A stretch of DNA of 64,000 nucleotides, from positions 32,565,332-32,629,331 of the forward strand of contig NC_053046.1 of the NCBI RefSeq assembly GCF_003473485.1. Reading direction: 5' to 3'. This DNA comes from Medicago truncatula. Taxonomy: Eukaryota; Streptophyta; Magnoliopsida; Fabales; Fabaceae. Made by a program: the position numbers and the translations under genes. The notes under the pieces are model-generated. The model worked only from the letters and a program-made list of their open reading frames with translations. It did no database searches and was not told where the DNA came from. Shown in pieces: positions 28,081 through 63,300 of the stretch; the stretch's first letter is position 1, and every line of letters starts with the position of its first letter.

Positions 28081-30518
28081 AACAACAAAAAGAAAGTGGA
28101 AACTTTATTACCCGTAACATATACAATCACATTTATTGTTTTTCTAGATGATATACATGCACATCCAATCATATGATAAGCCGATTTAAGTCATATTGAA
28201 CAACATAGCCACACAAAATATCCTTTAAAAAACACACACAATATTTTATCAATAAAAAGAAAGCCGTAGAATTCACACAAGATCAACAATGACAGATGCA
28301 TAAATTTTCACTATTTTTCTCTCTGCTGAATTTTACTCTTGACGTCTTTATAACAACTCTAGGAGAATCTCATCAAAAGAATTACATCTAACTAACGATA
28401 TCATTGCCTTGGATTTTGTTTCAATTCTTACAATGATTTCTTCAAAAGACACACCTTAGATTTGTCTTCCATAAAACCTTTCGAATGCTTTGTGTAGATT
28501 GTCTTTTTAAGGGGTCCATGTAAGAATGCGGCATTCACATCCATTTGTTCCAACTCAATATTGTATTGATAAACGATAGTCGTGAGTATCTTTATGGAAC
28601 AATGTTTTTCTACCGGTGAGAAGATCTCATTTTAGTTGATCCCCTCAACTTGAGTGAAACCTGTTTCCATAAAACCTTGCTTTATACCTTGGACCTTTAA
28701 CTCCCGGAATGCCTGCCTTTTTTTTGAAGTTCCAATTGCATCCAACTACCCTTTGTTTCCTAGGCAGTCTCACAAGTTTCTAAGTATGGTTCTTCCCTAG
28801 TGAATACATTTCCTCATTCAATGCCTTCAATCATTCCTTGCTTTCTTTGCCCTCAAATGCTTCCTTGAATGTTTTTGGTTTCAAGTTTTGCAATTCTTCA
28901 GCCGCGTTTAGAGCATAACAGACCGAGTGAGCACAACCATCTCTTCTAGGTGCCACAACGGGCCCTCCTTTCCCTGTCCTCGCCAACTGATAATCAGGAT
29001 CCAACACCGATTGACTTTCATTCAAACATGATGCCAAAGTCTGATCCTCTTCCTCTTACTCCTCATATTTCTCTTCTTCAGAAGGAAGCTCAACCATATA
29101 ATCTCCAGGTATTTTCATTTCATCCTTATGTGGGTCCTATCAAAATGAAAAACATCCCTACTTATAATGACTCCCGATACTCCACCAGATTCCCACTTCC
29201 ACATCTTGTAACCATGCAGACCCTCTAGATAACCCAGTAAGACACATTTCACAGCTCTAAATTCAAGCTTTTCTATATTGATATGTATATATGCCAATTC
29301 CATGAAACCTTCAAAGTTAACTAGTCATCTGGTTTGACCTCCATCGATGTCTTGAAGTTTATTCATGTTGATGGACATAAGTTGATCAAATATGTCGTGA
29401 TCATCACAACTTTTCCCCATAACTCGTAGGTAACCGAGTTCCTAGAATCATGCACCTCACCTAAGTCGAGCTTAGCCATTTTATTGCGGTGTTCTTGGTA
29501 CGGTTTATGCCTCTTGATACCTTTTAACATGCAAATCTCATTAAACTTTTCTGAAGAAAAATAAAAACTCAAGGACATTGTAAATTCTTAAAGTTTTCAA
29601 TTTCGTTCCGATTTGATTTTCTATAAGGGTGTGCCATTTTGTAAACTTTTCAAAGGTGCCACTTTTATTTTTCAAAAGAAAGACCCGTACCTTGATAAAA
29701 AGAAAATAGGAACCTCCCATATGAGTAAGTGTCTTACAAGGACCCCAAAAATCCAAATGCACATACTCAAAGGGCCTACTAGAATGATGCATGCCACATC
29801 CAAACTTAACCTTATGTTGTTTTCCTTGTATGCAATCATCATAAAATTCTAGCTTTTCCAATTTATATTTTCCTAGAAAACCTTGTTTAGCTAGTTCTAC
29901 TAAATCACTTTCACTAGCATTCCCTAACCTTAAATGCCACAACCTATATTTATCATGAGAAGCTTCACTAGCTATGGATGCATGACCAGTTGCAATGAAA
30001 CCCTCTAAAATGTATAAACTACACATCTTATACTCTTTAACAGTAACCAATACACCATGCAAAAAATTTAATATGCCATGCGCAAGTGCAATAACCTTGA
30101 CACTTCAAGTAGGGGTGGGAATGAGCCGGGCCGAGCCGGGCTTTGCTTAAATAGGCTAGGCCTTGTTGAAAAAACTATAAGGCCTAAGCATTGGCCTTTT
30201 ATCTGTCAAAGGCTTTATTTTAAATTTGGTCTGACCTTTTTAAAAGTCTGGCCTAACCTATTAACCTGTCTAAAAACCTAGTTTATGTTACAAATTTCGA
30301 ACAGAGTATGTTCATCAATTTTTTTTCCTTTCAATTTGTGCAACATACTTAATATAGAGATAAACATTAATTAGATACAGATTAAACTAATGAAACACAA
30401 TTATCAAATTTATAGATGGATAGAAACTCAAAAATAATAATATCTGATAACAGCAAGAATTTCAATCTTAATCTAATAACCATACTTGACATATCAGTAG
30501 CAAGCATTAACAGTTCAC

Positions 30519-43918: not shown

Positions 43919-44205
43919 CTCCCTCCGTCCTAATTTATAAGCAAAAAACACTAATTCACAGTTATTAAGAAAACTAACACTTAGTGATTTGAGGTATAAT
44001 TTTTTGTGTTCTCCTTGGAATAAGTTTCATGGAAAGATGTAAAAATAATTCTCATTGGTTAAAAATTATGGAGAAAATAAAAAGGTGAACAGATTAAATG
44101 CAACTTGCATTTAATTTTACATTGAAAAAGATGATTTGTTTGAAAAAACATAAAAATAACATAAAAGTTGATCTTTTTTGCTTATATTTTAGGACGGAGG
44201 GAGTA
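43917..44205. mobile_element. Stowaway MITE, 285 bp plus TA duplication
   Basis: The left end TACTCCCTCCGTCCTAATTT and the inverse of the right end (TACTCCCTCCGTCCTAAAAT) form terminal repeats of about 30 bp, flanked by TA. The element lies in the promoter of the chimeric EXO70J-WRKY gene. Confidence 0.92.
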
Positions 44206-44388
44206 TTAAAAATACATGAAAGTTTGTACGGTTTACACATAATTATGAAATATAGACCACAGTGAACGAGTGGAGAGAATTGATTGAAACCTTATCTCAA
44301 TTCTCAAGAAAATATCTACATTATTAGAGGACAACTTCCTCGAAATTTCAGCTGAAAGAGTGATAACTTCTCACACACGAAGTCAAAA

Positions 44389-44562
44389 ATGGTTGGTCTC
44401 ACTCTCACTCTATCTTTGAAATTAATCCTTACACACTTGACACAACATGGTGCATACTCTAATCCAAACATGGAGATGGATGATGTTGCCAAAGGTGTGG
44501 AGATTTGTGGGCTTTGCTTCATCTCTTGTTGGACTTGTTTGCTATGCATTAAGCTCTTCCTT
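44389..44562 (+). promoter_or_regulatory. Upstream ORF of the EXO70J-WRKY chimera, 57 codons
   Basis: An ATG lies 58 nt before the main ATG at 44447, in another frame, and reads MVGLTLTLSLKLILTHL. It overlaps the main start and stops about 115 nt into the coding region. Position and first residues are shared with three other copies. Confidence 0.45.
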
Positions 44563-47500
44563 TAACTATCTCTTTGGAGAATGGAATTTGTTGAAAATAT
44601 TTCTTTACAGCGCTTTCAGTTTCATCATCTGCTTGGTGATTTTATTTGCAAAGAAATTGCAACATTCTAGCAGTCTTCGATTCAAAGCTCATTCGGCATT
44701 TCTGGTATTGACACTCACTTCAATCTATTCCTTTTTCTTTGATAAAGTCATGAATGGGAAACCAGATGCATATAGTTTAATTTCATGTGCTGCCTTTGCT
44801 ATTATGTCACTTAGTTTGTCAAGGCAAACTCAGTGGGGATTTGAAATTGATCTTCTTTATTTTTTCCTGGGATGTCTAATTGTTCAACTCATGAAGATTA
44901 AGTTGCAGTTATTAATTCTTGGAGCTGGTTTTAGCTATTGCCTTATCATTCTCCGTTCTTCATTTTCTTCGCTAGATACCGGAGAAAATAGTCAATACAG
45001 CTCTGAACTCCAAGATGAGAATTCGGTGATTCTTTATGTGGATTCTCTGCAATCACCCGGTGTTAATAATAATATTTCTCTGCAATCTCCCAGTGTTAAT
45101 AATAATATTTCTAGTGCTACCAGTAGCATTGATTCACCACAATTGGTTATCAGTACTAATGTTGGTAGTATGATGGAACAACTCGGGACTTATGTGAAGG
45201 CGCTTGAGCACGAAAATTCAAATCTCATTCAAGTTATTTCGGAGCATGTAGAAAAATACGTTGAAGAACACTCTCAATTGGTGGTGACCGATCCAAACCT
45301 AATGATGGATGCGTTGAAGCCTCAAACCATTAATGACCTTGAGGAAATAGCAAAGGTCATGTGTATGGCTGGGTTTGAGAAGGATTTTTCCGATGTGTAC
45401 AACAATTGCCGGAGGGAATGCTTGGACAAGTGCCTAATGCATAAATTATTCGGCTTACAGAAGCTCAGTATTGAGGACGTTCACAATATGTCATCGAAGG
45501 ATCTTGAAGACAAGATTGAAAGATGGATTAGAACTTTCAATGTCGCTCTCAAGGTACTTTTCCCTAGCGAGCGAAGACTTTGTGACCGCATCTTCTTTGG
45601 ATTCTCATCCGCGGCTGATTTCTCCTTCATGGAGATTTGCAGGGAATCCACCATTCAACTTCTAAACTTTTTTGATTATGTGTCCAGTGGAAGTCACTCA
45701 CCAGAGCGTTTGTTTAAAATCCTTGAGGTTTTTGAAACATTGCGAGATATGATTCCAGAATTTGCATCCTTATTTTGTGATCAGTACAGTATGTCTCTAA
45801 GGAATGAAGCAACTGCTATATGGAAGAGATTGGGGAAAACAATTAGGGACATATTTAAGGAGTTGGAGTATTTGATTGGTCGAGATCTGACGAAGGTGAT
45901 AAATTTTGGTGGCGGTCTTCAACCGATTACCCAACACGTGATGAACTACCTCCGTGTAGTTTGCCGATCCCAGCAAACATTAGAGCAAGTCTTCTACGAT
46001 TCCTCACTTTCTTCGAAGATTCATAGGATTATCGATACATTGGAGAGCAATTTGGAAGCAAAGTCCAAATGCTACGTGGATCCTTCTTTAGGCTATATAT
46101 TTTTGATAAATAACCACACATATATAGTTGAGATGACCAAAGATAATGAACTAGGAACCCTTTTGGGGGATTATTGGCTCCAAAAATACACTGAGAAAGT
46201 TTGGCATTACCATAGACAATATCATAAAACCAAGGGAGCGATCGCCTCATCTGTAGTGCTAGATTTTTTCCGGTCAAATTATGAAAGAATTAGAAATATC
46301 AAAGGTGGGGAAGTATTAGAGGTGTATCAAGAAGATATGAAAGAAATAGAAATATCACCCTTGCAACCAGGAGAAAGGTATCAAAACTTTATAATTCATA
46401 AACAGTTCAAAATACAAAATAATTTGTTTTGGTTTCAAGTTCAAAAGAATTTTTTTTTTGGCATCGTTGGCTGAAGTTCTGAAATTCTTTACTCCTACGG
46501 TATTAAAATGATGTGCGTCCGAGGAGTGTATTTTTTTAATTCTCCAATGAGTGTTATTTTTGCTCATTTTAAAAATATTAAAAAATGCAAAGTAGAATAT
46601 CCTTATTAGAGCATTTTTTTTTTTTTGAAGGACCTTATTAGAGCATCTTTAAAGTGAGATGTTTTGTATTATAGTATGTGTTGCATATTACTTACTCTCG
46701 TTGGACAATAAATAAACGAGATTGTTATTAAATCGAAATGATTAAGATTTAACAAATTAGTTGTTGCTCTTTCAAGAAAAATTAATTGTTGTTAAAATGT
46801 AATAAAATTATAGCGTGTATCACGAATTGTATTTAACCGCTAGGTCTCTTGTTTAATAATACAATATGCGAGTGACTAAATTGAAAGTGGTACACTCACA
46901 GTTACCTCAATTCGTGACGTTATCGTGATCAATTTTGTCAGGATACATAGATTTCCCAATGTAAAATTATTCATGGGTTCCATTAGTAATGTTTTTAGAG
47001 TTGCTGGTTGAAGTGAATAAGTGATTATTAGATATTAACTTTGTAAAAGTTATGTGTACGCATGCAACTCAAATGAGATCATTTATTATGGGACGGATAT
47101 GGTATTAATTATATGTACAATTAGAAGAAAAATAAATATTTAATGTTACTATTAAAACTTATAATGACATTTCATTTTAAAATAATATTTTGTTCAACGA
47201 AAACTCACCCTAAAAATGATGGATAATAACATATATAAAGATCATATATAGATTTCAATAGTAATATAAAGTTAAAATCTAGTCAACAGTTTAGGTGGTC
47301 CATGAAAGGTAACATTTGTTTTTAAGTTTTGTTAGATCCTTCACATCTACAAGATAGAAAATGGCTCTTTTCCTATACAAAATTGCTCACTCCCACGTGA
47401 ACCGACCAAAATATGCTTAACGTGAGTAGCAGGTTTACAGCCTACTTACGGCAGGGGTCAAGTATTAAGTCTTGTGTTGATTCATATAGGTTATATAAGT

Positions 47501-50500
47501 GAATACCAAAAACAAAACAAGAAAGGATTTACCAAATTGCATAGTTTGTTAGCAACGTGAGTTAACTCACGTAGGTTATAGGACAACATGAGTTAACTCA
47601 CGTTGGTTTTATCGAAGGCGAGTTAACTCACGTTGGGGGTATTTTGATCTGTTCACGTGGGAGTGAGCAATTTTGTATGATAGAAGAGCACTTTTCTACA
47701 AGATATTATAATGATCTCATTATATCGGATCAATTTTTCAAATAAAAACTTAGTATTCTCTTGCTTTTTCCTCCCCTTCGGTTCCTCCATTACCTTTCGT
47801 TATGCACTTCACACTCAAGTTGCAATGATGATCTTGTAACAGTACCATATATTTCTATTTACAATCAATTTCTTGCATGCTGACCTAATGATTGTGTATT
47901 CGTATTAATTAATGGCAGGAGAAAGAAATTGGAGACAGAGATAACAACAATAGTGATCTCTCCCGAACCCCAGTTTGGGAACACATACAAAATGCCACCG
48001 GAAGACGGGTTTACCTGGACAAAATATGGCATGAAAGAGATACCTGGCTTCATATACCCTAGGTATGTATGGTCAATTAAGTAATTAATTTTGTTAGGAA
48101 ACATTAAATTTATTGAAAAATTAAAAACAATAATCCTTGTTTGCTAACTTCATTCAACCATCTCTTAGTTTCTCTTTTTGTTTTATGAATAGGGCGCCAT
48201 TCAAACCCATCTTCTGTTACCTGCAACTTTCCTTCTTTTTTGTTATGTAATTACCTCTGCCATTTTCTATATGCTCTTTTGTGACACAAATTAAAAGAGA
48301 AAGGAGGCCTATGACTATTCGAGTACACCATCGGCCGCCCGCAACTCAATGTGCTAAGGGAGGCCTCCCTTATACTTAACCCTAAAATTCCAACTAAACA
48401 TTGGGAGAATAAGGACCATAAGGGTAAATCAAGAGGTAGCAAGACGCTGCTACCCTCACAGCTAGAGAGGGAAACATGTCGACCAACGTAGCAAACACGA
48501 TCTTCAAGAAATTAGCTTGAGGCAGGATATTGACCTTGATAGTGAAAATAGCTAGAGGTCTATATAGATGACATGGTGGTGAAGACCAAGGAAGTATGGA
48601 TTCAAAACCGAGTCCTACAAGAAATCTTGGGTTCCGTTAGAAAATACAACATTTGTCTAGATAGTTCAAAATGCTCCTTTGGAATCCAAGCTAGAAAATT
48701 CCTTAACTTGATGCTCACGATGAGGTGAATTAATATATAGAAGCAAATGCTAATAAATTCTGAGATATAAACATGAGGAGCCCATCAAGTATTAAAGGAT
48801 CCATCATCTAATGCGAAGAACCACAACTTTATTTCAGTTTCTATCTTGCGCCGAAGACAAAGCCTTTAATTTCTTCCCCCCCATGTTACTATGTATAAAA
48901 GAGGAGGAAGCAAAGAGAGTAACGTAGTAGGTAAAAGAAGTAATGTGTGGCAGTCACGTTGGTGGAAGATCTTTGGTTTACAAAATACTTCGAGCAAGTT
49001 TCTACTTGCTCACTCTATTACTAGACAGAGTGGGCTTTTCCCATGAGCAATGGGTCAATTCAAGTTTCTAATCATAGGATTTTTACTACTTCACAAATTA
49101 GATTGAGGTAGAGCCAGTGGCTACCATCATGGAAGAGCAACTACGCATGGTTTACTAAAAGAAGATAATATGTATGTTTTTCCTACTGAAAAATATCATC
49201 TCCAAACACAAGACTCAATTCATCATCTCGTTGGTGATATAATTCTTCGAAGATATATATGGGTATTTAAAATAAATTCATCTAGATTATACATCCATGA
49301 GAAAATGGACAAGTAGAGTCAACCGACAAAGTCATACTCATCGAACCAAGAAGAAATTGGTAGAAGCAAAATGTAACCGGGAAGATGATCTCCCGCCAGT
49401 GTGTTATGGTCTTATCATAAGACTATCACTCTTCAGTAAGGGAAATATACGTACAAGTATTTGCTTTTTTTATATGAATGCGTAAGTCATACCTCTAAAG
49501 TCAAATGAAGCAAATTATATACGTAATTTGAATTTTTGTTGTTTTTGTTTCAGGAGTTATTACAGGTGCAACCACGTGAAATTATATGCGTGTCGAGCCA
49601 AGAAGAAAGTACAACAACTTGGTGACCATCCAAACATATTTGAAGTTAGATACAACGGTGGACATACCTGCCGCATGTCCTTAACAATACCATCATTATT
49701 TGTACCAGCACGTCAACCACTGGATATCTCTATAGATGGTATTCAAAGCACCATGCCTACATCGTCTACTTTATATTCTAGGAGGATTTCATCAGGCATG
49801 CCAGGTATTTTTTTATTACCAATAAATAATGAGAGAAGTGTCAGCGTAGCAGAGATTGCTTGATGTGCAAGCAATCAATATTGAGAGAGAATTAAGAGAG
49901 AAGAAAGGGAGTTCTATGTGGTTGTAACTATATATTCTCATTAGCAATAATTATGTGAGGTTACATTGCAATGGGTACTTCACCAACCAAGCAAAAAAAA
50001 ACCCAAAGAAACTAACGGTCCAAACAAAGAAGGAGGTTCCAGAACTTAAACTAACGATCTATTAAAAAATCTTAATTAACAAAAAAATACTTGACTTAAT
50101 ATACTACTCCCTCGGTTGCTATAAGAATTGTTACAAAAATTTATTTGTCCCTAAATAAAAGACTTATTATAAATTTTTAGATACATTTATTATTATTTTT
50201 CAAAATATAACCATTATTAATACTATCAATTTATCATGAAACATTAATTTTAAACATTGAAGGATTTATATGCAAAGAGTAATTTGCTAATAGTCACACT
50301 TATGTTAGACAGATTTATTACTCAAACAATTTTTTTAAATGCATGATTTTTGTATCTTGAGTAGGAGTGGGGTAATTTGATGGGATTGCTTCAGGTTTTC
50401 GTTTCCTTAGGTGTTGTTTGAGAGTTTGGAGGAGAGTGTTTTGGAGGGATGAGACTAGAGGAAAAAATAGAGAAATATTTCAAAAAAATTAGGAGGGTTT

Positions 50501-51087
50501 TTCTAGTGAATGATAAAAGAATACTTATGGGGTTGAAACAAAGCCTTAGGGGTTCGGAGACAGTTTGAGCTAGGTTTTACTTTGGTTTGACATGCAACTG
50601 TATGGTCTGTCTAGAAAGCTTGAAAATATATTCTTTTCTCCGGCAAGATCATTGGTGTTGAGTATCTGGTTTATAGGATCCAATTCTAAATGGTTCTTTG
50701 CCAAATACTCTAGATAGAATTGTTTTCTTTATGATTGGTAGGTGCGGCAAATTCTCCATCGGACCAGCAAGTTTCCTTTTTCTTGGCAGAGATGGATTTG
50801 ATCTGTGCTTTTAATGTTTGGAAGGCGCATAGGCCTCCGAGGTCTTTCTAGTTGGTGGTTCTCCTTGCCCTGTTGTCTGCTAGTGGTGGTTTGAGAGTCT
50901 TTTGTGATGGGGCCGACCTTGTGTGGGTTTTTGTTGGGTAGGGTCTGGGGGTGTTTGTTTGGCCTCTCGGGTTGCAGTTTTGTTTGTTTACTTTCTCTGT
51001 TTACCTTTTCTTGGTTGTAGGACTTTCCATTTCTTTTGTATCTGACAACTTGCTGTTGTAAATTCTCTCGGTGTTTGCCCCTTTTCG

Positions 51088-51127
<40 letters not shown>

Positions 51128-52074
51128 ATTAAAAAAAACAATTGTATCAAGAGTTGTTACACTAATTGAATTCCACAGGAAAATCCATAAACTCTATGCC
51201 AGAAGCCAAGTTAGCTGCTCCATCAAAGTCTGAAGAATATGCAGACCCTTTTTTGCGTCGTTTTTTCATAACAGGAAAATCCATAAACTCTATGCCAGAG
51301 GCCAAGTTAGCTGCTCCATCAAAGTCTGAAGAATATGCAGACCCTTTTTTGCGTCATTTTTTCATGACAGGAAAATCCATAAACTCTATGCCAGAGGCCA
51401 AGTTAGCTGCTCCGGCGGATGGTGGGCATCACCTTATGATGGCGAAAATTATGGCCTATCTTCTTTTTGCTATAAGATCACAACATATCAAAGTTGTTAA
51501 TAGAGACAGAACATTTTCAATACAAACTGAGGGGACAATGGAACTTTTAGAGAGCATATTAGCATCAAAGTCTGAAGAATATGCGGACCCTTCTTTGCGT
51601 CATTTTTTCATGATGAACAATTGGAAATATTTAGAAGTGACAAATAGACCAAGTGATATGGATGCAGTTTTTGGCGATGATTGGTTACAAAAAATCAGAG
51701 CAAAGGTCCAACAAAACATTGAACTCTATCAAAGAAACTCATGGGATAAGGTGTTAGAATTTTTGAAGTTGGATATCAATGATTCCATGGAAGTTAATTT
51801 TGTAGTAGATTTGATGAAAGAAAAGATTAGTTTGTTTAACAAGCACTTTACAGAGACATGCAGAGTTCAGTGCACATGGTCCATTCATTATTATAAGCTA
51901 AGGAAAGAAATGATTGAATCTCTCAAGAATACCTTGCTCCCAGCGTATGGAATCTTCATTGGGAGGTTTCAGGATTTTCTTAAAACTGATGCTTATGAGT
52001 ATATTGAGTATGGAATGTTTGACATTCATGACATACTTGATAATTTGTTTCTTGGAAACAAGAAAAACAAATGA
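44447..52074 (+). CDS. Predicted EXO70J-WRKY-EXO70 chimera, 4 exons, about 1073 aa
   Basis: Predicted exons are 44447-46377, 47919-48062, 49554-49804 and 51179-52074. All introns are GT-AG, phases match at each junction, and the total is 3222 nt (1073 codons plus stop). Domains: membrane module (about 1-172); linker and EXO70 domain lacking its last third (about 280-605); a WRKY-adjacent stretch; a WRKY domain (about 660-735) with WTKYGMK in place of WRKYGQK and zinc ligands C697, C705, H729, C731 (C-X7-C-X23-H-X-C, group III); 32-residue repeats (776-854); and a second EXO70 C-terminal half (about 855-1073). The intron between IYPR and SYYRC is at the conserved WRKY position. A poly(A) signal AATAAA is at 52170. 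If exon 1 is not spliced, it ends at 46474 (675 aa). Soybean has separate membrane-anchored WRKY-related and Exo70J proteins in the Golgi. Joining of all four exons in one transcript is inferred. Confidence 0.7.
47358..47696. mobile_element. MITE in intron 1 of the chimera
   Basis: The left arm ATACAAAATTGCTCACTCCC and the inverse of the right arm are identical over about 28 bases (through CACGTGAAC) and similar further out. Inside are three copies of the palindrome GAGTTAACTC (near 47562, 47590 and 47621), mostly within CGTGAGTTAACTCACGT. It lies within the first intron. Confidence 0.75.
48290..48890 (+). mobile_element. Ty3/gypsy pol fragment in intron 2
   Basis: From 48561 the frame reads VYIDDMVVKTKEVWIQNRVL, then EILGSVRKYNICLDSSKCSF and GIQARKFLNLMLT. 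This is the gypsy reverse transcriptase region with the catalytic YIDD motif. A later FLSCAEDKAFNFF piece (about 48840) is also gypsy-like. Stops lie on both sides. It is a relic in the intron between the two WRKY exons. Confidence 0.8.
49805..51178. other. Intron 3 of the chimera, possible LINE 3' end
   Basis: Contains one MITE-like end (TACTACTCCCTCGGTTGCTA, 50101 on) without a clear partner. A GT-rich segment (about 50380-51087) is followed by a TA microsatellite (51088-51124), like the 3' end of some plant LINEs. The ORF tail 49805-49863 is intron read-through. No gene is supported here. Confidence 0.4.
51179..51415 (+). repeat. 96-bp coding tandem repeat (2.5 units) with a splice acceptor in each
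   Basis: Units start at 51179, 51275 and 51371 (the last is partial), each after ACAG. Each full unit encodes GKSINSMPEAKLAAP plus SKSEEYADPFLR and four or five more residues. The second half of the unit closely matches the EXO70 segment at 51567-51611 (SKSEEYADPSLRHFFM). The repeat thus arose by duplicating a piece between the exon start and the EXO70 part. Confidence 0.88.
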
Positions 52075-53949
52075 ATTGTTTGGTTTGTTATCACAAATTT
52101 ATGTATGTATCCATTTTATTTTTTCGTTGTTTGTTTGGGTTGTGTTTTGTTTTGTACTGATGTTTTGCCAATAAAAGAACAATAGTAATATTTGATATTG
52201 ACATAAGCACTTGTCAGACAGTTTGAGACAGATTATGGAAACATTGATCCACCACTTCTATGAAACAAATTATTAAGGGCTCCTTGAAAATTTCCATTTT
52301 ATTCAATGTTAAGATTATGCTATTGATAGTGAAACTCGCAACTATGTAAATAATGTTTTGATGAAGTTGCAGTTTCCATAAAGCCGGTTGAAAGAAGAGC
52401 TTAATGCATAAGAAATGAGTCCAATGATACTTGATAAAAAGTCCGAAATTCTTCATTGCTTTATCTGAATATGTCTATTGGAAATTCTTTTGGGCAAATT
52501 ACTTAGTTTTGACCCCCTATGTTTTCCAATGTGCCGATTTTAATCCCCTATAAAAAAAACAATTTTAACCTTTAAGTTTTTCCTCTTTTGCAACTTTGGC
52601 CCCTTGGTCTGATTTTGACCCAGTCAAAGCACATGTGGCACCTCACTTAAGTGAGTTGGACGTCACGTGTTTAATTTTTTAATAAAAAAATGAAAAAAAT
52701 ACCAACTAATCATTTACAAAATTAAAACTTACATATACTCTATGCTCAAGTATCATAAAGTATTTTGAAGTTTTGTAATCTTTGAAGTTCTTTTGATGTT
52801 TATTAAAAGAACTTTTCATTTCAAGTAATCAGATAAAACTTTCGATTTGTATCGTCATGTATAATCAAGATGTTAGCCTCTAAGACTATGGTAGCTGGTG
52901 ATGGACAACAACTGATTCTTTGACTCTGTTTCATGAAATAAATATTTGAATAAATCTTAATTGACTGTAATTCCATATTTTAAAAGGTATTGACCTGGAT
53001 CTGCAATGCCATCTGTGAGAATGCAAAGTAAGGTCAAGAACATCTCTTCATGCACTGCTCATTGTCGTAACTCTTGTGGTTTGAGAATTTCTGTCCCTCT
53101 CCAAGACGTCATGGGAGACTGAAATTCGAAGCGAAAAACATCTCCCCAACTTTGGTAGACGCAATTGGGCGAATGTGGGTGTCTCAACTAGGCAATTTGA
53201 ATAGATGTTTGCTAGCCTTATTACAAAATTTATTTCTGAAGTGTTAAAGCTATCTATGGATATCTCTTGTTGATATAGATTATGTCATTTTGGAATGTTT
53301 GGACATGTTGTATGTGATGAATAACACTAGGTGTGTGCAACATTAAATTAAATAATTAATAAACCAAATGAAAAAAAACTAATTAAACGCACTGTCATAA
53401 TGAGAAAATGAAAACAATCTAGATTTCTATTTCTTTCTTGTTTCAACCAAAACTATATATCAAGCAACTTAAACTCCTATTTATAGCTTTTACCATCAAG
53501 ATGCCATGCCCTTGCAATGTAAATCGACATTATAAATTATGAAGTTATGAAAGAAAATATAAAAAGAAAGAAGTAGGTGTAAATTTCTCACAGATATTTT
53601 ACAATTTTTCTATTAGTCATGATTAGTTATTGAGAGAAGGGAGGGTTTTCAAATATTGTGCATGCTTATTGAGAAATAAGGGTTTGCAATTATGTCCTAG
53701 AAAAAGCAGCCAAAGAGGAGGTATTTACAGATACTATTAATCATAATCATATATGGACTTCAGTATATAAAAACTTAAGTAGAATCAAAAGCACTAACAT
53801 TAACAATGGAAAGCTGAAAGTGTCGATCATACATATAGTCATAACTTCTGAGACAAAAATTGTTCTAGGTCCTCTCATTACACTTATAATAATGGACTTA
53901 TAATAATCAAACATGCAGAATGTTAATAATCAATTACGGAATACATCAT
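52075..53949. other. Intergenic; no supported gene
   Basis: Holds the 3' UTR and AATAAA of the chimera (52170). A Mutator-like end is at about 52498-52670 (GACCCCCTATGTTTTCC; GTCACGTG). The rest is AT-rich with no coding signal; the left flank of the copia relic may contain LTR sequence that I could not delimit. Confidence 0.4.
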
Positions 53950-55080
53950 TAATCTCATTACACATGTTGCTAAAGCTAAAGTTGTGTATTCAGCTTCTGA
54001 AGAAGATCTGGATACAGTGATTTGTTTCTTATTGGTACTCCATGAAATTAATGACTTGCCTAGGAAGAAACACCGACCAGAAATAGAACGCCTAGTGTCA
54101 ACACATATATCCTACCCAGTCAGCATCACTAAAGCCTTGCAGATGTAGAGAAGAATCTCTAGGGAAGTAAAGACCTTTGCCATGACATCCCTTGAGGTAT
54201 TTGAGGACTCTCTAAACAGCATTGTAGTGAGTCTGAGTAGGTTTAGAAAGGAACTGACTCAATTGCTATGTAATGTAAGTGATGTCAGGTCTAGTTGTGT
54301 TGAGGTACAAAAGTCTTCCAACTAAACGCCTATAAGATGGAATGTCTTCAAAAAAGGGAGAAGAATCTTGATGAAGCTTAATGGAGGTATCAAAAGTAGT
54401 ATATTCAGGCTTAGAAGGGATGTTTCCTGAATCAGAAAGGAGATCAATGCAGTATTTTCTCTGTGATAATGAGATGCCATGCTTGAGCAAATGCAAGACC
54501 AAGGAAATACTTCAGTTGTCCTAAATCCTTGATTTTAAATGATGAGTGTAGGATGGATTTGATGTGGTGAAACTCAGAAAGAGAGTTTCCAGCTAATATT
54601 ATGTCATCAACTTAGACTAAGAGAATTGTGAAGGAATCATCAGTTTTCTTAGTAAAGAGGGAATGGTCTGCAGACGCTTTGAATGTATGATTGTTGAATG
54701 AGAACGGAAGTGAGCTTCTCATACCATTTTCTACTAGCTTGTTTAAGATCATACAAGGATTTCATAAGCTTGCACACTTGATTAGGTTTAGTGGAGGTGA
54801 TCCTTGGGGGAAGTATCATATAATCATCTTCTTGCAATTCTCCATGAAGAAATGCATTGTTTACATCAAGTTGATGCATATGCCAATGATGAATAGATGC
54901 TAAAGATATAACAAGTCTCACAGTACTGAGTTTCGCAATAGGCGGATATGTGTCAAAGTAATCAAGTCCCTCAATTTGATTGTAACCTTTAGCAATCAGT
55001 CTGACTTTGTATCTCTCAATAGATGCATCAGCGTGATGTTTGATCTTGAAAATTATGGTGTTTCTTAACATTCTTTTCAA
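53950..55080 (-). mobile_element. Ty1/copia reverse transcriptase/RNase H relic
   Basis: On the minus strand: 55080-54649 encodes [20 protein letters not shown] and [20 protein letters not shown], then [15 protein letters not shown]. Next comes 54502-54266 (SYRRLVGRLLYLNTTRPDIT). RNase H follows near 54050-53960 ([20 protein letters not shown] then SEAEYT). Frameshifts separate the parts, so it is inactive. Confidence 0.88.
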
Positions 55081-55089
55081 AGAATTTTC

Positions 55090-55390
55090 TCATTCTCACC
55101 TCGGATCCTCTCGATCCCATAATGCCTCTTAACGGTCTATAACAAATTAAGCATTGATGGCTGCCCTCCATAACGGTTGCCCCGTCGTAACCCAACGAAT
55201 CTTTTTGGAGTCTATATAAACAAGCCTATAAGATCTCTCAAGGTAGGCATTCTTCCACGCTTAACCCTCATTCTTGCTTATATATTGACTTGAGCGTCTG
55301 AGTTCTTGCAAGTACAACCCCATTTCTCCTTGGATTGCCGCCACCACATCCTTAGAGCACCTACATCAATGATCCACTATTATTATGTTT
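55090..55390 (+). mobile_element. LTR-like fragment (probably Ty3/gypsy)
   Basis: GTCTATATAAACAAGCC (TATA box near 55212), ATTCTTCCACGCTTAACCCT and TGACTTGAGCGTCTGAGTTC followed by TTGCAAGTACAACCCC resemble the promoter/R region of legume gypsy LTRs. The boundaries are unclear. Confidence 0.5.
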
Positions 55391-57012
55391 ATTGACAGAA
55401 ACATCCATTATCATTGTGAATATGTTTACCTTCTTTGGATATATTATGTGTTTGTTCTAAACAGTTGACATTAGGAATATAAGCTATTTTAGATTTCTTA
55501 AAAAAAAAAAGTAAAAGCTAGGTTAGATGAATGAGAATTTGAATCGAGAACTTTTGTTCTTAGTCTATGTTGTTTAAATTATCGCTTCTCTTAAAATCTT
55601 CACTTAAATATCAAGCAAACACAACAACCCTGTACGGTAGCAATGCAATACTACACCATCACAAATAGCGCCCGATTATCATCATCATCTACTCCAACCA
55701 AATCAATTGTTCTTTTCTTTTAGAAAAATATTAGAACTACTCCAAATCAATTATTGTTCTTTTATTTTAGAAAAATATTAAAAAAAAATAGACTTATATT
55801 TAAACAAGGTCGTGTTGGGTTGTTATATTTGCAAGGACTTTTATAATCAATTAGAAAGGTCCTATAGCATCATTGACGGACTTTTTCTTGGGTTGGACTT
55901 TTCAAGCATGTCATAATTTTTTAGTTGGAGGTTGCAATTTATTAGAAAAAATCATGAAACAAACAAGCAGAGATGATTGACCCACGCGCGTTAGACTTTT
56001 TAAGCATTTCTTTTAAAGAAGAATTTCAAACATGATATAACTATTCAAAATAATAATTTTCTATATATCCTCTCAAAAAAAGTGTGGCCACAAAAAAAGT
56101 GTGGCCAAAATAAATATCTATATTTATATTAATATTAATATTATGTACAAAGAGAATACATTGTCCCCTTAAAAAAAAATAGTGATATTTGAACAACCAT
56201 GTGGGACAATTTATGTGACAACTTCTTTATTTTCTCTTTTCATTGATCAAAATCAATAGAGAGAGAAAAATGAAGAGAGATAATAAGAATATAATGTGAG
56301 TATGATAGAGAAAGTTGTCAAAAAGTTGTTATAAAGTGGTTGTGCAAATATCATTTCTTTAAAAAAAAACAGAGAATGTATAGTTTTAAGATGGTTTTTA
56401 TCAATTTCAATTATTTTTTTTTTATAAGCAAGGAGAGAGGACAGGCATCAAGAGGCATCATCGACATTCCAACTAGATTGGTATCCCGAGATACCTCCAT
56501 CCTATGCCGCCAAGCTCGAAATTCTTAAACAAATTTACATATTTATTTTTTGAGAATGTTATATTTTGGTGTCATTAAAAAATATAAAAATTCATATTAT
56601 ATTCGTTATATTGTTGGTACAATTGAAAATTATAAATATAGTATGTTACAATATATGAAAGCATAAATTATCCGCACATATAATTTTAATCAAAATCTAA
56701 ATTTATAAAAATTATTTTTATATTTTATACGTATTAGCGCAATAAAAAATCTAATTCATATCATTATTTAAAAAAAAAAGAAAAATAATCGAAAGATGAT
56801 GAAAGTTTGAAAAAAAAATGTATAGTAGTATACTAGAATGAACATGTGGAGTGAATTGATTCGGAATTTATTTCACGAAAATACATGTGGACCCTTGCCT
56901 CAAAATTTCAAGTTGAAATTTTCAACACAAAGAGATAGCTTCTATACATGTTGACCATTAGTTTCATTCTCATTCCATTTGTGAAATTAATTCTCACTCA
57001 CTTGAAAACAAT
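55391..57012. other. EXO70J upstream flank (copy at 57013), with a MITE
   Basis: Positions 55540-56620 match 35150-35770 and 39575-39640 in broken form; in the other copy this flank was split by the CACTA and other insertions. A MITE of the 11459 family occupies 56188-56357. Positions 56690-57012 match 39986-40335. No gene is seen. Confidence 0.5.
56188..56357. mobile_element. MITE, same family as 11459-11633
   Basis: The left end GTGATATTTGAACAACCAT is inverted at the right end (TGGTTGTGCAAATATCA). The interior matches the first copy (CAACTTCTTTATTTTCTCTT; AGAGAAAGTTGTC). Confidence 0.7.
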
Positions 57013-58302
57013 ATGAAGCATATTCTATTCCAAATTTGGAGATGGATGATGCAGCCAAAGGTGTGGAGATTTCTGGGATTTTCTGCAGCTGTTGTTGGAC
57101 TGCTTTGCAATGCTCTCAGTTCTTCCTTCAACTATCTCTTTGGAGATTGGAATTTGTTCAAGATAATTCTTTACACTGTTTTCAGCTTCATCATTTGTGT
57201 GTTAATTTTATTTGCCGCAAGGATATGGCAACACTCAAGAAGTCGTTGGTTCCAAGCGCATACAACATATGTTGTATTGGCAATCACGTCGCTATATTCA
57301 TATTTTTTTGATAAATTAATGCATATAACACCAGATGCATATAGTCTCATTTCATGTGCATCCTTTGCTGTCACGGCGCTTAGTTTGTCGAGGAACAAAA
57401 CTCAATGCGGATTTGAAATCGATCTTCTATATTTTCTTCTAGGATGTCTAATGATGCAACTCATGAAGATTAAATTGAAATTATTCATTCTTGGAGCAGT
57501 TTTTAGCTATTTTCTTATTATTCTCCGTTCATCCTTTTCTTCAATAGATGCTAGAGAAAATAAACAATACTCTGAATTCCAAGATGGAAATTCAGTGGTT
57601 CTTGATATGGATTCTCTACAACTGGCGAGTACTAATACTTCAAGTGCTATCAATAGCATGGATTCACAACAATTGGTGATCAGTAGTACAGATATTGGCA
57701 GTATGATAGAAAAATTGGAGACTTGTGTGAAGGAGCTTAAGCACCAAAATTCAAAGTTCATTCAAATTCCTTTAGGGCATGCAAAAAAATATGAACACTC
57801 TCAATTGGTGCTGGTGAATCCCAACTTCATGACAAACATGCTGAACAAAGAACCTATCAAAGACCTTGAGGAGAAAACAAATCTTATGGTGAACGGTGGG
57901 TTTGAGAAGGATTTTTCCTATGTGTACAACAATTGTTGTAGGGAATCTTCCACAGCCTCTTACAATATAATTTTCCTTCACGAGCGAAGACTCTACAATC
58001 ACATCTTCTTCGGGTTCTCACCCGCCTCTGATTTCCCCTGGGGATCCAACATTCAACTTTTGAATTTTGCTGATTATGTGGTCACCAAAGTCCGTTTGCC
58101 TGAGCAACTATTTAAAATCCTCGAGATGTTAGAAATAATGTGCGACCTAATTCTAGAATTTGAATCCTTGTTTTATTATCAGTTCAATGTGTCTCTCAAG
58201 AAAGAACAACCGGCGAAATGGAAGAAATTAGGGGAAACAATCAAAAGAATTTACATGGAGTTGGAGTATGTCTGCAATACAGCTGACCCAACTACAAGTT
58301 GA
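57013..58302 (+). pseudogene. EXO70J with internal deletion and lost C-terminus, open for 429 codons
   Basis: The membrane module is intact (about 1-172), and a longer linker carries NTSSAINSMDSQQLVIS. In the EXO70 domain about 45 residues are missing in frame: YNNCCRE joins directly to a LHERRLYNHIFFGFS block. The frame ends at VCNTADPTTS where other copies continue into GGGLHPIT. The last third of the domain is absent and the following DNA is unrelated. The uninterrupted frame allows a protein, but it lacks the membrane-binding C-terminal end of EXO70. Confidence 0.75.
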
Positions 58303-59230
58303 CTTTCCCAAAATTAAGGGCATTTTTGGTAAGAGAAAAAGTCATCCTAAAAGAATTGAAAAATGTTATTTTCTTTATATATAGTATAGATAATAGAACA
58401 AAAGAAGATGGAAATTTTGTAAAGAAAAAGGAGATCATGGAAATAAAAAAAATTAAAGGAAGAAAAAAATGTTACCTTTCTATGCACTTTTTTTACTAAA
58501 GTTCATTGTTTCCAAATATTAGATTGATTCTTTGATGGTGTGAAAGTGTACATGAGATAGAACTAAAAAAATTTATGATAGTCTTTTTTTTTTTTTTGAG
58601 CAATTATTTATAATAGTTAAATAAAGGGATGTACCCAAAAAATTAATGAAGGATGAATAATACTGTAAGAAGCATAATATTGTAAATACCAAGGTTAAAA
58701 TTAAGGATAAAATTATGTATTCCCCTAATATATGTAAGTGTGTATATATATATATATATATATATTTAACTCAAGTATAGATTATAGATTAAAAAAATTA
58801 AAAAGGTGTTTCATTTCATTATTAACTATAAAGAATAATATATATTGAAATTTCATGAACGTTTGTACGGTTTAAAAAATTATAAAATATTGGCCAGAGT
58901 GAACATGTGGAGAGAATTGATGGAAACCTGAATTGATGGAAACCTTATCTTAATTCTCAAGAAAATATCTATATTATTAGAGGTGGTGGAGCTATGATAA
59001 GGATTGCACGTTAGTTGTGACACGTTACAATATTTTTTTTAAACATTAAAACATAAAAGATTGTGAAAGAGATAGGAAAAAAAAAAATTGAATTGACTGT
59101 GTTACAATTGGATTGATCAATATGATGTGACATTCCCGCCTTAACGTCACGGACGTGATAACCAGTACTTTAGTCCCTTCCAAGAAATTTCAGCTGGAAC
59201 AGTGACAACTTCTCGCAGCCGAAGTAAAAA
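58303..59230. other. EXO70J upstream flank; no gene
   Basis: Contains a short TA microsatellite (58742-58766). From about 58690 it matches 43260-44390 upstream of the chimeric gene, without the Stowaway MITE found there. A T-run with GAGCAATTATTTATAATAGT at 58587-58620 may be another tail-only insertion. Confidence 0.45.
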
Positions 59231-60312
59231 ATGGTTGGTCTCTCTCCCACTCCATCTTTGAAATTGATCATTACACACTTTACACAACATGGCACATATT
59301 CTAATCCAAATTGGAGATGGATGATGTTGCCAAAGGTGTGGAGATTTGTTGGCTTTGCTTCATCTGTTGTTGGACTGCTTTGTTATGCTTTAAGCTCTTC
59401 CTTCAACTACCTCTTTGGAGAATGGAATTTGTTGAAAATATTTCTCTACAGTGCTTTCAGTTTCATCATCTGCTTGGTCATTTTAATTTATATGCAAAGA
59501 AATTGCAACATAATAGAAGTCTCCGATTTAAAGCTCATTCGGCATTTTTGGTATTGACACTCACTTCAGTCTATTCATTTTTCTTAGTTTGTCAAGGCAA
59601 ACTCAGTGCGGATTCGAAATCGATCTTCTTTATTTTTTCCTAGGAAGCCTAATTGTGCAACTCATGAAGATTAAATTGCAGTTATTCATTCTTGGAGCAG
59701 GTTTTAGCTATTTCCTTATAATTCTCTGTTTTTCCTTTTCTTCGCTAAATGCCGGAGAAAATAGTCAGTACAGCTCTGAACTCCAAGATGGGAATTCAGT
59801 GATTCTTTATGTGGATTCTCTGCAATCGCCCAGTGTTAATAATAATACTTCTAGTAATGCCACAAATAGCATCGACTCACCACAATTGGTTATCAATACT
59901 AATAATGGTAATATGATGGAACAACTCCGGACTTGTGTAAAGGCGCTTAAGCATGACAATTTAAATCTCATTCAAATTATTTCGGAGCATGTAAAAAAAT
60001 ATGTTGAAGAACACTCTCAATTGGTGGTGACCTATCCAAACCTAATCATGGATGCGTTGAAGCCGAAACCATGAATGACCTTGAAGAAATAGCAAAGGTC
60101 ATGATGATGGCTGGGTGTGAGAAGGATTTTTCCCAGATGTACAACAGTTGCCTAATGCATAGATTATTCGGCTTACTAAGCTCAATATTGAGGACGTTCA
60201 CAATATGTCATGGAAGGATCTCAAAGACGAGATTGAAAGATGGATTAGAACTTTCAATGTCGCTCTCAAGATGGATTAGAACTTTCAATGTCGCTCTCAA
60301 GATGGATTAGAA
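59231..60312 (+). pseudogene. EXO70J pseudogene, closest to the chimera's exon 1
   Basis: The ancestral ATG is at 59289; a one-base loss shortly after it shifts the frame. The upstream ATG at 59231 now reads through into the membrane module (MVGLSPTPSLKLI ... NWRWMMLPKVWRFVGFASS). Further defects: a shift near 59490, a deletion of the DKVMNGKPDAYSLISCAAFA codons near 59585, a shift near 60070 and a deletion before LMHRLFGL. Homology ends at 60312 in a 31-bp tandem repeat (units at 60238, 60269 and 60300). Linker sequence (DSLQSPSVNNN) matches the gene at 44447. Confidence 0.88.
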
Positions 60313-63300
60313 CATTAACATTTGATTGGTATTGTAAAACGACTTATAATTTAAAACAATTTATTTCCCATAACAACTTGTAATTTAGGATGGAAGGACT
60401 CACAACAAAAAGAAAGTGGAAACTTTATTACCCGTAACATATACAATCACATTTATTGTTTTTCTAGATGATATACATGCACATCCAATCATATGATAAG
60501 CCGATTTAAGTCATATTGAACAAAATAGCCACACACAATATTTTATCAATAAAAAGAAAGCCATAGAATTCACACAAGATCAACAATGACACATGCATAA
60601 ATTTTCACTATTTTTCTCTCTGCTGAATTTTACTCTTGACGTCTTTATAACAACTCCAGGGAGAAACTCATCAAAATAATTTCATCTAACTGACAATATC
60701 ATTGCCTTGGATTTTGTTTCAATTCTTAGAATGATTTCTTCGAAAGACACACCTTAGATTTGTCTTCCATAACCTTTCGAATGCTTTGTGTAGATTGTCT
60801 TTTTAAGGGGTCCATGTAAGAATGCGGCATATGCATTCACATCAATTTGTTCCAACTCAATATCGTATTGATTAACGATAGTCGTGAGTATCTTTATGGA
60901 ACAATGTTTTTCCACCGGTGAAAAGATCTCATTTTAGTTGATCCCCTCAACTTGAGTGAAACCTGTTTTCCATAAAACCTTGCTTTATACCTTGGACCTT
61001 TAACTCCTAGAATGCCTGCCTTTTTTTTGAAGTTCCAATTGCATCCAACTACCCTTTGTTTTCTAGGCAGTCTCACAAGTTTCTAAGTATGGTTCTTCCC
61101 TAGTGAATACATTTCCTCATTCAATGCCTTCAATCATTCCTTGCTTTCTTTGCTCTCAAATGCTTCCTTGAATGTTTTTGGTTTCAAGTCTTGCAATTCT
61201 TCAGCCACATTTAGACCATAACAGACCGAGTGAGCACAACCATCTCTTCTAGGTGCCACAACGGGCCCTCCTTTCCCTCTCCTCGCCAACTGATAATCAT
61301 GATCCAACACCGATTGACTTTCATTTAGACATGATGCCAAAGTCTGATCCTCATCCTCTTACTCCTCATATTTCTCTTCTTCAGAAGGAAGCTCAACCAT
61401 ATAGTCTCCAGGTATTTTCACTTCGTCCTTATGTGGGTCCTATCAAAATGAAAAACATCCCTACTTATAATGACTCCCGATCCTCCACCAGATTCCCACT
61501 TCAACATCTTGTAACCATGTAGACCCTCTAGATAACCCAGTAAGACACATTTCACAGCTCTAAATTCAAGCTTGTCTATATTGATATGTATATATGCCAA
61601 TTCCATGAAACCTTCAAAGTTAACTAGTCATCTGGTTTGACCTCCATCGATGTCTTGAAGTTTATTCATGTTGATGGACATAAGTTGATCAAATATGTCG
61701 TTATCATCACAACTTTGCCCCATAACTCGTACGTAACCGAGTTCCTAGAATCATGCACCTCACCTAAGTTGAGCTTAGCTATTTTATTGCGGCGTTCTTG
61801 GTACGGTTTATGCCTCTTGATACCTTTTAACATGCAAATCTCATTCAACTTCTCCAAAGAAAATAAAAATTCAAGGACATTGTAAATGCTTAAAGTTTTC
61901 AATTTCGTTCCCATTTGATTTTCTACAAGGTTGTACCATTTTGTAAACTTTTCAAAGGTGCCACTTTTATTTTTCAAAAGAAAGACCCGTACCTTGATAA
62001 AAAGAAAATAGGAACCTCCCATATGAGTAAGTGTCTTAGAAGGACCCCCAAAATCCAAATGCACATACTCAAAGGACCTACTAGAATGATGCATGCCAGA
62101 TCCAAACTTAACCTTATGTTGTTTTCCTTGTATGCAATCATCATAAAATTCTAGCTTTTCCAATTTATATTTTCCTAGGAAATCTTGTTTAGCTAGTTCT
62201 ACTAAATCACTTTCACTAGCATTCCCTAACCTTAAATGCCAAAACCTATATTTATCATGAGAAGCTTCACTAGCTATGGATGCATGACCAGTACGTTGCA
62301 ATGAAACCCTCTAAAATGTATAAACTACACATCTTATACTCTTTAACAGTAACCAATACACCATGCAAAAAATTTAACATGCCATGCGCAAGTGCAATAA
62401 CCTTGACACTTCAAGTAGGGGTGGGAATGAGCTGGGCCGAGTCGGGCTTTGCTTAAATAGGCTAGGCCTTGTTGAAAAAACTAAGGCCTAAGCTTTGGCC
62501 TTTTACCTGTCAAAGACTTTATTTTAAGCTTGGTCTGACCTTTTTAAAAGTCTAGCCTGACCTATTAGCCTGTCTAAAAGCTTAGTTTATGTTACAAATT
62601 TCGAACAGAGTATGTTCATCAATTTTTTTTTTCCTTTCAATTTGTGCAACGTACTTAATATAGATATAAACATTAATTAGATACATATTAAACTAATGAA
62701 ACACAATTATAAAATTTATAGATGGATAGAAACTCAAAAATAATAATGTCTGATAACAGCAAGGATTTCAATCTTAATCTAATAACCATACTGGACCTTA
62801 GGCATATCAGTAGCAAGCATTAACAGTTCACACAAATATATAATATCAGTAGCAAACATATCAGGAATATACCTAGGAAAAAGATTCCACCTTCATTTAG
62901 CTCGAAAGCCTCATAATACTCCTTTCTTGGTCACATGTGATAAGAGGAATTCGAGTCCAAGACCCAACTATTTTCCATTTTTGAACTTGTGACCCTTAAG
63001 GCGCACACACCCTCATAACCTTCTTCAACCTATCAGGCTTATGACAAATAAAACATTTTGTATTTAAATTTATCACACCCCTTGGACCGCTACTGATAAC
63101 TAAACTTCTTATTTCCTTTTCCTCTATGCTCACTCCTTCCCCTTAAAGTATCAATGCTTTCACAACTTTGCTCAACATTTTTCAAATCCTTAAACTTGGT
63201 TAACTCCATGAACGCAAAGTTGCTTGGACTTCCTCCAAAGTAGTGGTTCCTTCTATCCATAAAGGATGGTATCCTTAAAATTCTCAAAACACTTTGGTGA

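Follow-up and report, generated by a model that had tools for sequence, protein, structure and literature searches.

Whether a membrane module, a WRKY domain and two EXO70 parts that lie in series in the Medicago truncatula genome belong to a single gene is the question raised by the stretch C5:32565332-32629331 (64,000 nucleotides of the 429.9-Mb genome, referred to here at its full length as the window). A preliminary description of this DNA had joined these parts into one predicted gene and called it a fusion. This claim is borne out, as we found the same make-up, with the WRKY domain flanked by EXO70, in other legumes; the fusion looks like an old legume invention and not like an accident of gene prediction. 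To the fuller reading, namely that the locus is one gene of a conserved legume fusion family, encoding a Golgi-anchored EXO70 tether with the WRKY part as a protein-binding or bait surface, we give about half of our confidence. The single transcript and the tethering and bait functions are what we infer.

Gene structure and recurrence of the arrangement

The four exons (44447-46377, 47919-48062, 49554-49804 and 51179-52074, all on the plus strand) lie where they had been predicted and form one open frame of 1,073 codons, from the ATG at 44447 to the stop at 52072-52074. All six splice sites are GT/AG, with donors after 46377, 48062 and 49804 and acceptors before 47919, 49554 and 51179, and the junction phases are 2, 2 and 1, hence compatible as claimed. 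The predicted 1,073-residue protein comprises, in this order, the membrane module, an EXO70 domain devoid of its last part, the WRKY domain and a second EXO70 C-half. Exon 1 encodes the membrane module up to residue ~185 and EXO70 at residues ~281-605; the Pfam Exo70_C match ends here at profile position 268 (2-268 of 372, E 2.6e-66), which agrees with the fading of EXO70 likeness described earlier for the end of this exon. The open frame around exon 2 holds the first part of the WRKY domain with the core WTKYGMK (WRKY 1-22, E 5.9e-4, its 20.4 bits narrowly missing the cut-off of 21 bits), that around exon 3 holds the remainder (20-58, E 2.9e-10) plus a linker, and exon 4 encodes the second EXO70 C-half (Exo70_C 192-371, E 2.5e-43) and the stop.

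Upon Markov resampling, exon 4 stayed open in frame in 0 of 2,000 sequences and exon 1 in 0 of 300, while the short WRKY exons did so in 100 and 21 of 2,000. Thus, the openness of the WRKY exons alone is unremarkable, and that of exon 4 over 297 codons is not due to chance. Matching phases are by themselves weak evidence; the chief evidence is the recurrence of the arrangement in other species, which rules out a chance reading of phase-compatible exons.

The search for proteins combining WRKY and EXO70 in other legumes, suggested with the preliminary description, yielded 12 database proteins from seven species: three of Trifolium pratense, three of T. repens, two of T. subterraneum and one each of pea, chickpea, Vicia villosa and Lotus. 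Nine of these proteins were among the 37 retrieved when the joined protein served as query, its residues 644-1073 alone being used for words and scoring; two further WRKY-EXO70 proteins came from the best 120 of 250 matches to the membrane module, and another two from the 49 matches to exons 2-4, where scoring covered the 7,994 candidates with most words in common. One of these 13, P0040 of Sesbania, was set aside, because its EXO70 is complete, its WRKY is group I-like and it carries a second membrane piece. By hmmscan, eight of the nine proteins from the first search carry two or three Exo70_C stretches plus WRKY, and P0029 carries one; the alignment of ten rows (the window and these nine homologues) places one EXO70 on each side of the WRKY domain. 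Among the twelve, P0029 ends after WRKY, P0136 and P0141 are partial, and P0043 (V. villosa) has a WRKY match from profile position 17 and a reduced EXO70. Soybean and other phaseoloid members were not found among the matches listed, which is not proof of their absence. Three proteins of Mucuna pruriens (P0008, P0010 and P0011; 1,113-1,836 residues) show, by eye, EXO70 and membrane modules in series, and may represent tandem fusions or merged models.

Identity of the window protein with P0001 of T. pratense amounts to 153/184 residues (83%) in the membrane module, 228/325 (70%) in the first EXO70, 43/59 (73%) in WRKY and 157/223 (70%) in the second EXO70; the corresponding values for chickpea P0007 are 80, 66, 75 and 69%. 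These figures bear on the possibility that the protein is a working EXO70 tether in which WRKY is a mere spacer without a partner of its own. The good conservation of the EXO70 parts and the loss of zinc ligands or of the heptad in some members (P0003, P0004) would fit such a spacer. Yet, WRKY identity to the window (61-78% over nine homologues) is not below that of the first EXO70 (56-71%) or the second (53-71% over the eight having it), and we regard this explanation as rather improbable.

Merging of neighbouring genes by gene finders, with the parts transcribed separately, would be another way to obtain such proteins. P0040 resembles, and probably is, a merge of this kind, between neighbouring Exo70J and WRP1 genes. 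The earlier statement that no in-frame ATG precedes the WRKY exons holds for the interval between the upstream stop at 47881 and the WRKY exon; within exon 2 there is, however, an in-frame ATG at 47992, upstream of the WRKY core, which may permit a separate start of a shorter WRKY-EXO70 product. Yet, the arrangement recurs across several genera, exon 4 encodes only the C-half of an EXO70, and the exon 1 tail (its last 30-40 codons) matches the terminal part of exon 1 of a WRKY gene. A merge thus appears very unlikely.

Origin of the WRKY and EXO70 parts

A C-X7-C-X23-HXC zinc pattern and an intron after PR are hallmarks of group III WRKY domains, and both are present in the window. Intron 2 (48063-49553, phase 2) interrupts the domain at PR|SYYRC, a split also present at L045, a standalone WRKY locus; among solved structures, OsWRKY45 is the nearest relative. 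In turn, MtWRP1 (C5:32790149, within the interval C5:32789000-32791000), a separate gene of the same EXO70J cluster located ~173 kb from the fusion gene, has the pattern C-X4-C-X22-HXH, and the WRP1-like WRKY of P0040 is nearest to WRKY33, WRKY1 and WRKY2 chains. The WRP1 domain is classed as group I-like in PMC4449531 and PMC8871812. WRP1 is excluded as the source of the window WRKY by zinc pattern and nearest solved relatives, and the link between the WRP1 and Exo70J families proposed in the preliminary description fails on this ground. Since the window WRKY is of group III and that of WRP1 group I-like, the EXO70 cluster seems to have acquired a WRKY domain on two occasions, each time of a different kind. 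Other WRKY sequences in the C5 EXO70 cluster, apart from these two, were not found among the matches listed.

For a closer relative, the second WRKY halves of 28 M. truncatula loci picked from 152 matches were compared. The closest, at C5:29.948 Mb (L023/L045), shares 25 of 39 residues with the window and the next one 19; exon 2 of L045 reads RKNDLE...MPPEDGFTWRKYGQK as far as the PR intron. The exon 1 tail of the fusion resembles the end of L045 exon 1: with jointly shuffled columns, none of 1,000 shuffles reached the observed mean, and the result was equal for all ten rows, for nine rows without Lotus and for the seven Medicago and clover rows. Based on this resemblance, intron 1 (46378-47918) was probably inherited from the WRKY gene. 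It also contains an inverted-repeat element at 47355-47698 with 73-nt arms of 84% identity, and intron 2 a piece that we take to be reverse-transcriptase-like.

At the other end of the WRKY part, the linker of Lotus P0009 follows the C-end of the standalone WRKY to its last residue (score 144, 0/1,000 shuffles). For the linkers of the window, chickpea and T. pratense the match is weak (120, 17 and 43 of 1,000 shuffles), Lotus alone being clear. P0009 then enters what appears by eye to be a second EXO70J linker, followed by a nearly complete EXO70 (Exo70_C 2-371); in the remaining aligned species the second EXO70 is reduced to its C-half. Across six homologues, the alignment at this second seam is close.

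Trees of the two EXO70 parts comprised 33 and 32 rows, of which 23 were hand-chosen unfused sequences, membrane-module EXO70 and EXO70B being the subfamilies covered. Fused rows group together in the first-EXO70 tree (support 80/81, in 80% of 200 bootstrap trees) and in the second (59/85, in 64% of 200). The first EXO70 of these rows is placed next to EXO70B and J1-type rows, and the second within another EXO70J group. Within the fused group, Lotus is the earliest to branch off in the first tree and is weakly placed in the second. As the two EXO70 parts fall in different places, the fusion probably had three parents, a group III WRKY and members of two distinct EXO70J-type lineages. In this scenario, a stretch of a group III WRKY gene, beginning near the end of its exon 1 and reaching nearly to its stop, would have landed between two EXO70J-type genes. 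The upstream one would have lost the C-end of its EXO70 but not its membrane module, and the downstream one would have lost the membrane module and, except in Lotus, its N-half. The fusion probably arose once, and this would have happened before Lotus split from the clover, pea and chickpea group. The alternative suggestion that the locus is a surviving intermediate is disfavoured by the grouping of fused proteins on both trees (weaker on the second), as expected for one old event kept since.

State of the Medicago truncatula copy

Several observations weigh against the reading of the locus as one gene of an old, conserved fusion family. At the first seam, the EXO70-side tail of the window is only 26-38% identical with the eight rows having more than five aligned residues, and in pea, chickpea and Lotus the tail is either short or broken by gaps. 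Single exon 1 tails compared with WRKY exon 1 gave shuffle fractions of 0.025-0.765 over the ten rows; the joint test alone is strong, and it was run after the likeness had been noticed by eye. The second seam is loose in chickpea, includes a long extra stretch in Lotus and is not reached in P0029, and the 59/85 branch of the second tree is weak and drawn open. The homologue records were taken as gene predictions, the membrane module of P0001 is modelled below a predicted local distance difference test score (pLDDT) of 50, and the matches listed in the three protein searches include no close M. truncatula counterpart of exon 1 or of the fusion. Finally, in L009, the closest copy in the genome, exon 1 is interrupted by a stop and its end is missing, as are both WRKY exons.

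The last two points would also fit a real fusion family whose member in M. truncatula is in decay or has fallen silent, as would the altered WTKYGMK core, the unusual repeat at the start of exon 4 and the richness of the cluster in fragments and frameshifted copies. Yet, none of the four exons is interrupted and the six GT/AG sites are intact despite transposon-like insertions in introns 1 and 2. In comparison with broken copies, the ratio of nonsynonymous to synonymous substitution rates (dN/dS) of exon 1 is 0.33, 0.35 and 0.36 in three stretches, yet 0.92 in a fourth; that of exon 4 against L009 (0.62) is weak, resting on three synonymous and eight other changes. We consider decay possible, though unlikely.

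L009 is a recent duplicate located ~51 kb further on. It has kept intron 3 (49805-51178 in the window) and exon 4, which show 29 differences over 1,243 aligned sites (window 49805-51088; 349 gap columns excluded) and 11 differences in 705, respectively. The repeat that opens exon 4 (51175-51413, plus strand) consists of 2.5 in-frame tandem copies of 96 bp and was not found in L009 or in the aligned homologues. Because an AG recurs at the corresponding position of each copy (51179, 51275 and 51371), the start of exon 4 may shift by 32 or 64 codons, with splicing skipping one or two repeat copies. The repeat itself was seemingly assembled from two separate pieces of exon 4.

As for the surroundings, the window holds a cluster of EXO70B and EXO70J genes, in which one copy of each kind is open and several others are broken. 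Proteins P0044 and P0062, the second of them from M. truncatula, match two further EXO70J copies of the window at 99.6% and 99.3% identity, respectively. A segmental duplication relates window positions 44000-60300 to L009/L010 at a distance of ~49-51 kb and includes the fusion gene and the EXO70J copies at 57 kb and 59 kb. Retroelement fragments (gag_pre-integrs, RVT_2), presumably of Copia type, are located at 29544-30104, 54652-55089 and 61669-62310. Directly past exon 4, a 32-residue piece of the membrane module (56% identity) lies antisense at 52357-52452 on the minus strand.

Proposed function and relation to known systems

The membrane module (44447-45001, plus strand), common to Exo70J and WRP1 proteins, is recognizable from window copies, hydropathy segments and homologue identity. 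Copies in the window are 60-82% identical over at least 160 residues, with shorter pieces reaching 93%, and identity with the six fused homologues that keep the module in full is 70-84%. The model of P0001 (22 sequences, mean pLDDT 62.7) shows two EXO70 helical parts, in blocks mostly of 70-92, flanking a five-strand part of 46-73. In Foldseek this model matched EXO70F2 and EXO70A1 chains best, followed by WRKY18 (E 7e-4) and RRS1 (E ~0.01-0.03).

Over the ten rows, the tryptophan, the first cysteine and the last cysteine of the WRKY domain are kept in 10/10, the histidine in 9/10 and the second cysteine in 8/10, while the WRKYGQK heptad is intact in Lotus only. The DNA-reading motif is thus changed in most fused members, and because of this a membrane-held transcription factor is less likely than an EXO70 tether with a protein-binding WRKY. 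A membrane module combined with a DNA-binding-type domain and the heptad kept in Lotus would suit a factor whose WRKY part is released by cleavage; yet, the heptad is absent from the other nine rows and EXO70 lies on both sides of WRKY, and we rate such a factor as very improbable, marginally more so than a merge of gene models.

WRKY and EXO70 proteins are both targets of plant-pathogen proteins. In soybean, the membrane module suffices for Golgi targeting, a Golgi location is reported for five Exo70J members, and GmWRP1 does not bind the W-box (all PMC4449531). Silencing of GmWRP1 or some GmExo70J genes leads to fewer nodules and faster leaf senescence (PMC5004194), nodulation being affected by related membrane-module genes (PMC5004194, PMC8871812); furthermore, AVR-Pii binds rice Exo70F2 (PMC9618136). 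By analogy with the soybean papers, the fusion protein may reside in membranes. The N-terminal module would anchor it in Golgi-type membranes, with the EXO70 parts facing the cytosol and binding exocyst or other tethering partners. The second EXO70 would provide the C-terminal part absent from the first, and WRKY would serve not as a DNA reader but as a protein-binding surface, scaffold or bait for those pathogen proteins whose targets are WRKY and EXO70. The suggestions of a decoy or a Golgi tether, made with the preliminary description, are plausible hypotheses.

The same membrane module also appears in other single gene models: in Senna tora before AP2 and an LRR-like stretch (P0068; leucine-rich repeat, LRR, under the cut-off) and before AP2 and glutaredoxin (P0116), in Clitoria before GRAS (P0131), in V. 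villosa before PUB ARM repeats (P0117) and in Flemingia before a DDE transposase domain (P0118). These may be captures or merges. Taking together the group I WRKY of WRP1, the group III WRKY described here, AP2 in two Senna proteins, GRAS in Clitoria and PUB in Vicia, one could speculate, with no more confidence than we give to decay of the M. truncatula copy, that the module is a legume platform which repeatedly captures DNA-binding or immune-type domains as membrane-held baits or scaffolds, an effector trap free of nucleotide-binding leucine-rich repeat (NLR) receptors. No report of a WRKY-EXO70 fusion was found in titles and abstracts of the searched literature, a coverage outside which most subscription papers and preprints fall.

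Compared with known systems, the fusion protein shares with soybean Exo70J (GmExo70J1-12) the EXO70 domain, the location in clusters beside EXO70B and the N-terminal membrane module, present in 7 of the 12 soybean members (PMC4449531). It differs in that Exo70J proteins have one EXO70, with no WRKY reported in the accessible text of that source, and 10 of 12 lack a coding intron, whereas the EXO70 of the fusion is not one complete domain but two portions (2-268 and 192-371 of 372). With WRP1 (GmWRP1, MtWRP1; PMC4449531, PMC8871812) it has in common the membrane module, a WRKY with a changed heptad and the same cluster; in contrast, the WRP1 WRKY is group I-like (C-X4-C-X22-HXH) and not accompanied by EXO70, and MtWRP1 is a single-exon gene of 327 residues, as opposed to four exons here. 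Group III WRKY genes (OsWRKY45, L045) resemble the fusion in zinc pattern, intron position and the C-end retained in Lotus. Yet, L045 possesses an exon 1 of its own and WRKYGQK, unlike the WTKYGMK of the window, and no EXO70 or membrane piece is found among the open reading frames listed at that locus.

RRS1 is an NLR receptor with an integrated WRKY. Exo70, in turn, occurs as an integrated domain in wheat and barley NLRs (PMC4759884). Such receptors and the fusion protein are alike in placing WRKY or EXO70 inside another protein, where it could serve as effector bait; in contrast to them, the fusion gave no NB-ARC or LRR match in Pfam searches of the exons and the nine homologues. If the bait role is true, it would be an integrated decoy outside NLR receptors, and if the tether role is true, a subunit of exocyst type in which two paralogues were reassembled around a foreign domain. 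In either case, what sets it apart from the integrated-domain NLRs is that WRKY and EXO70 are united on one membrane protein, across several genera of crop and forage legumes.

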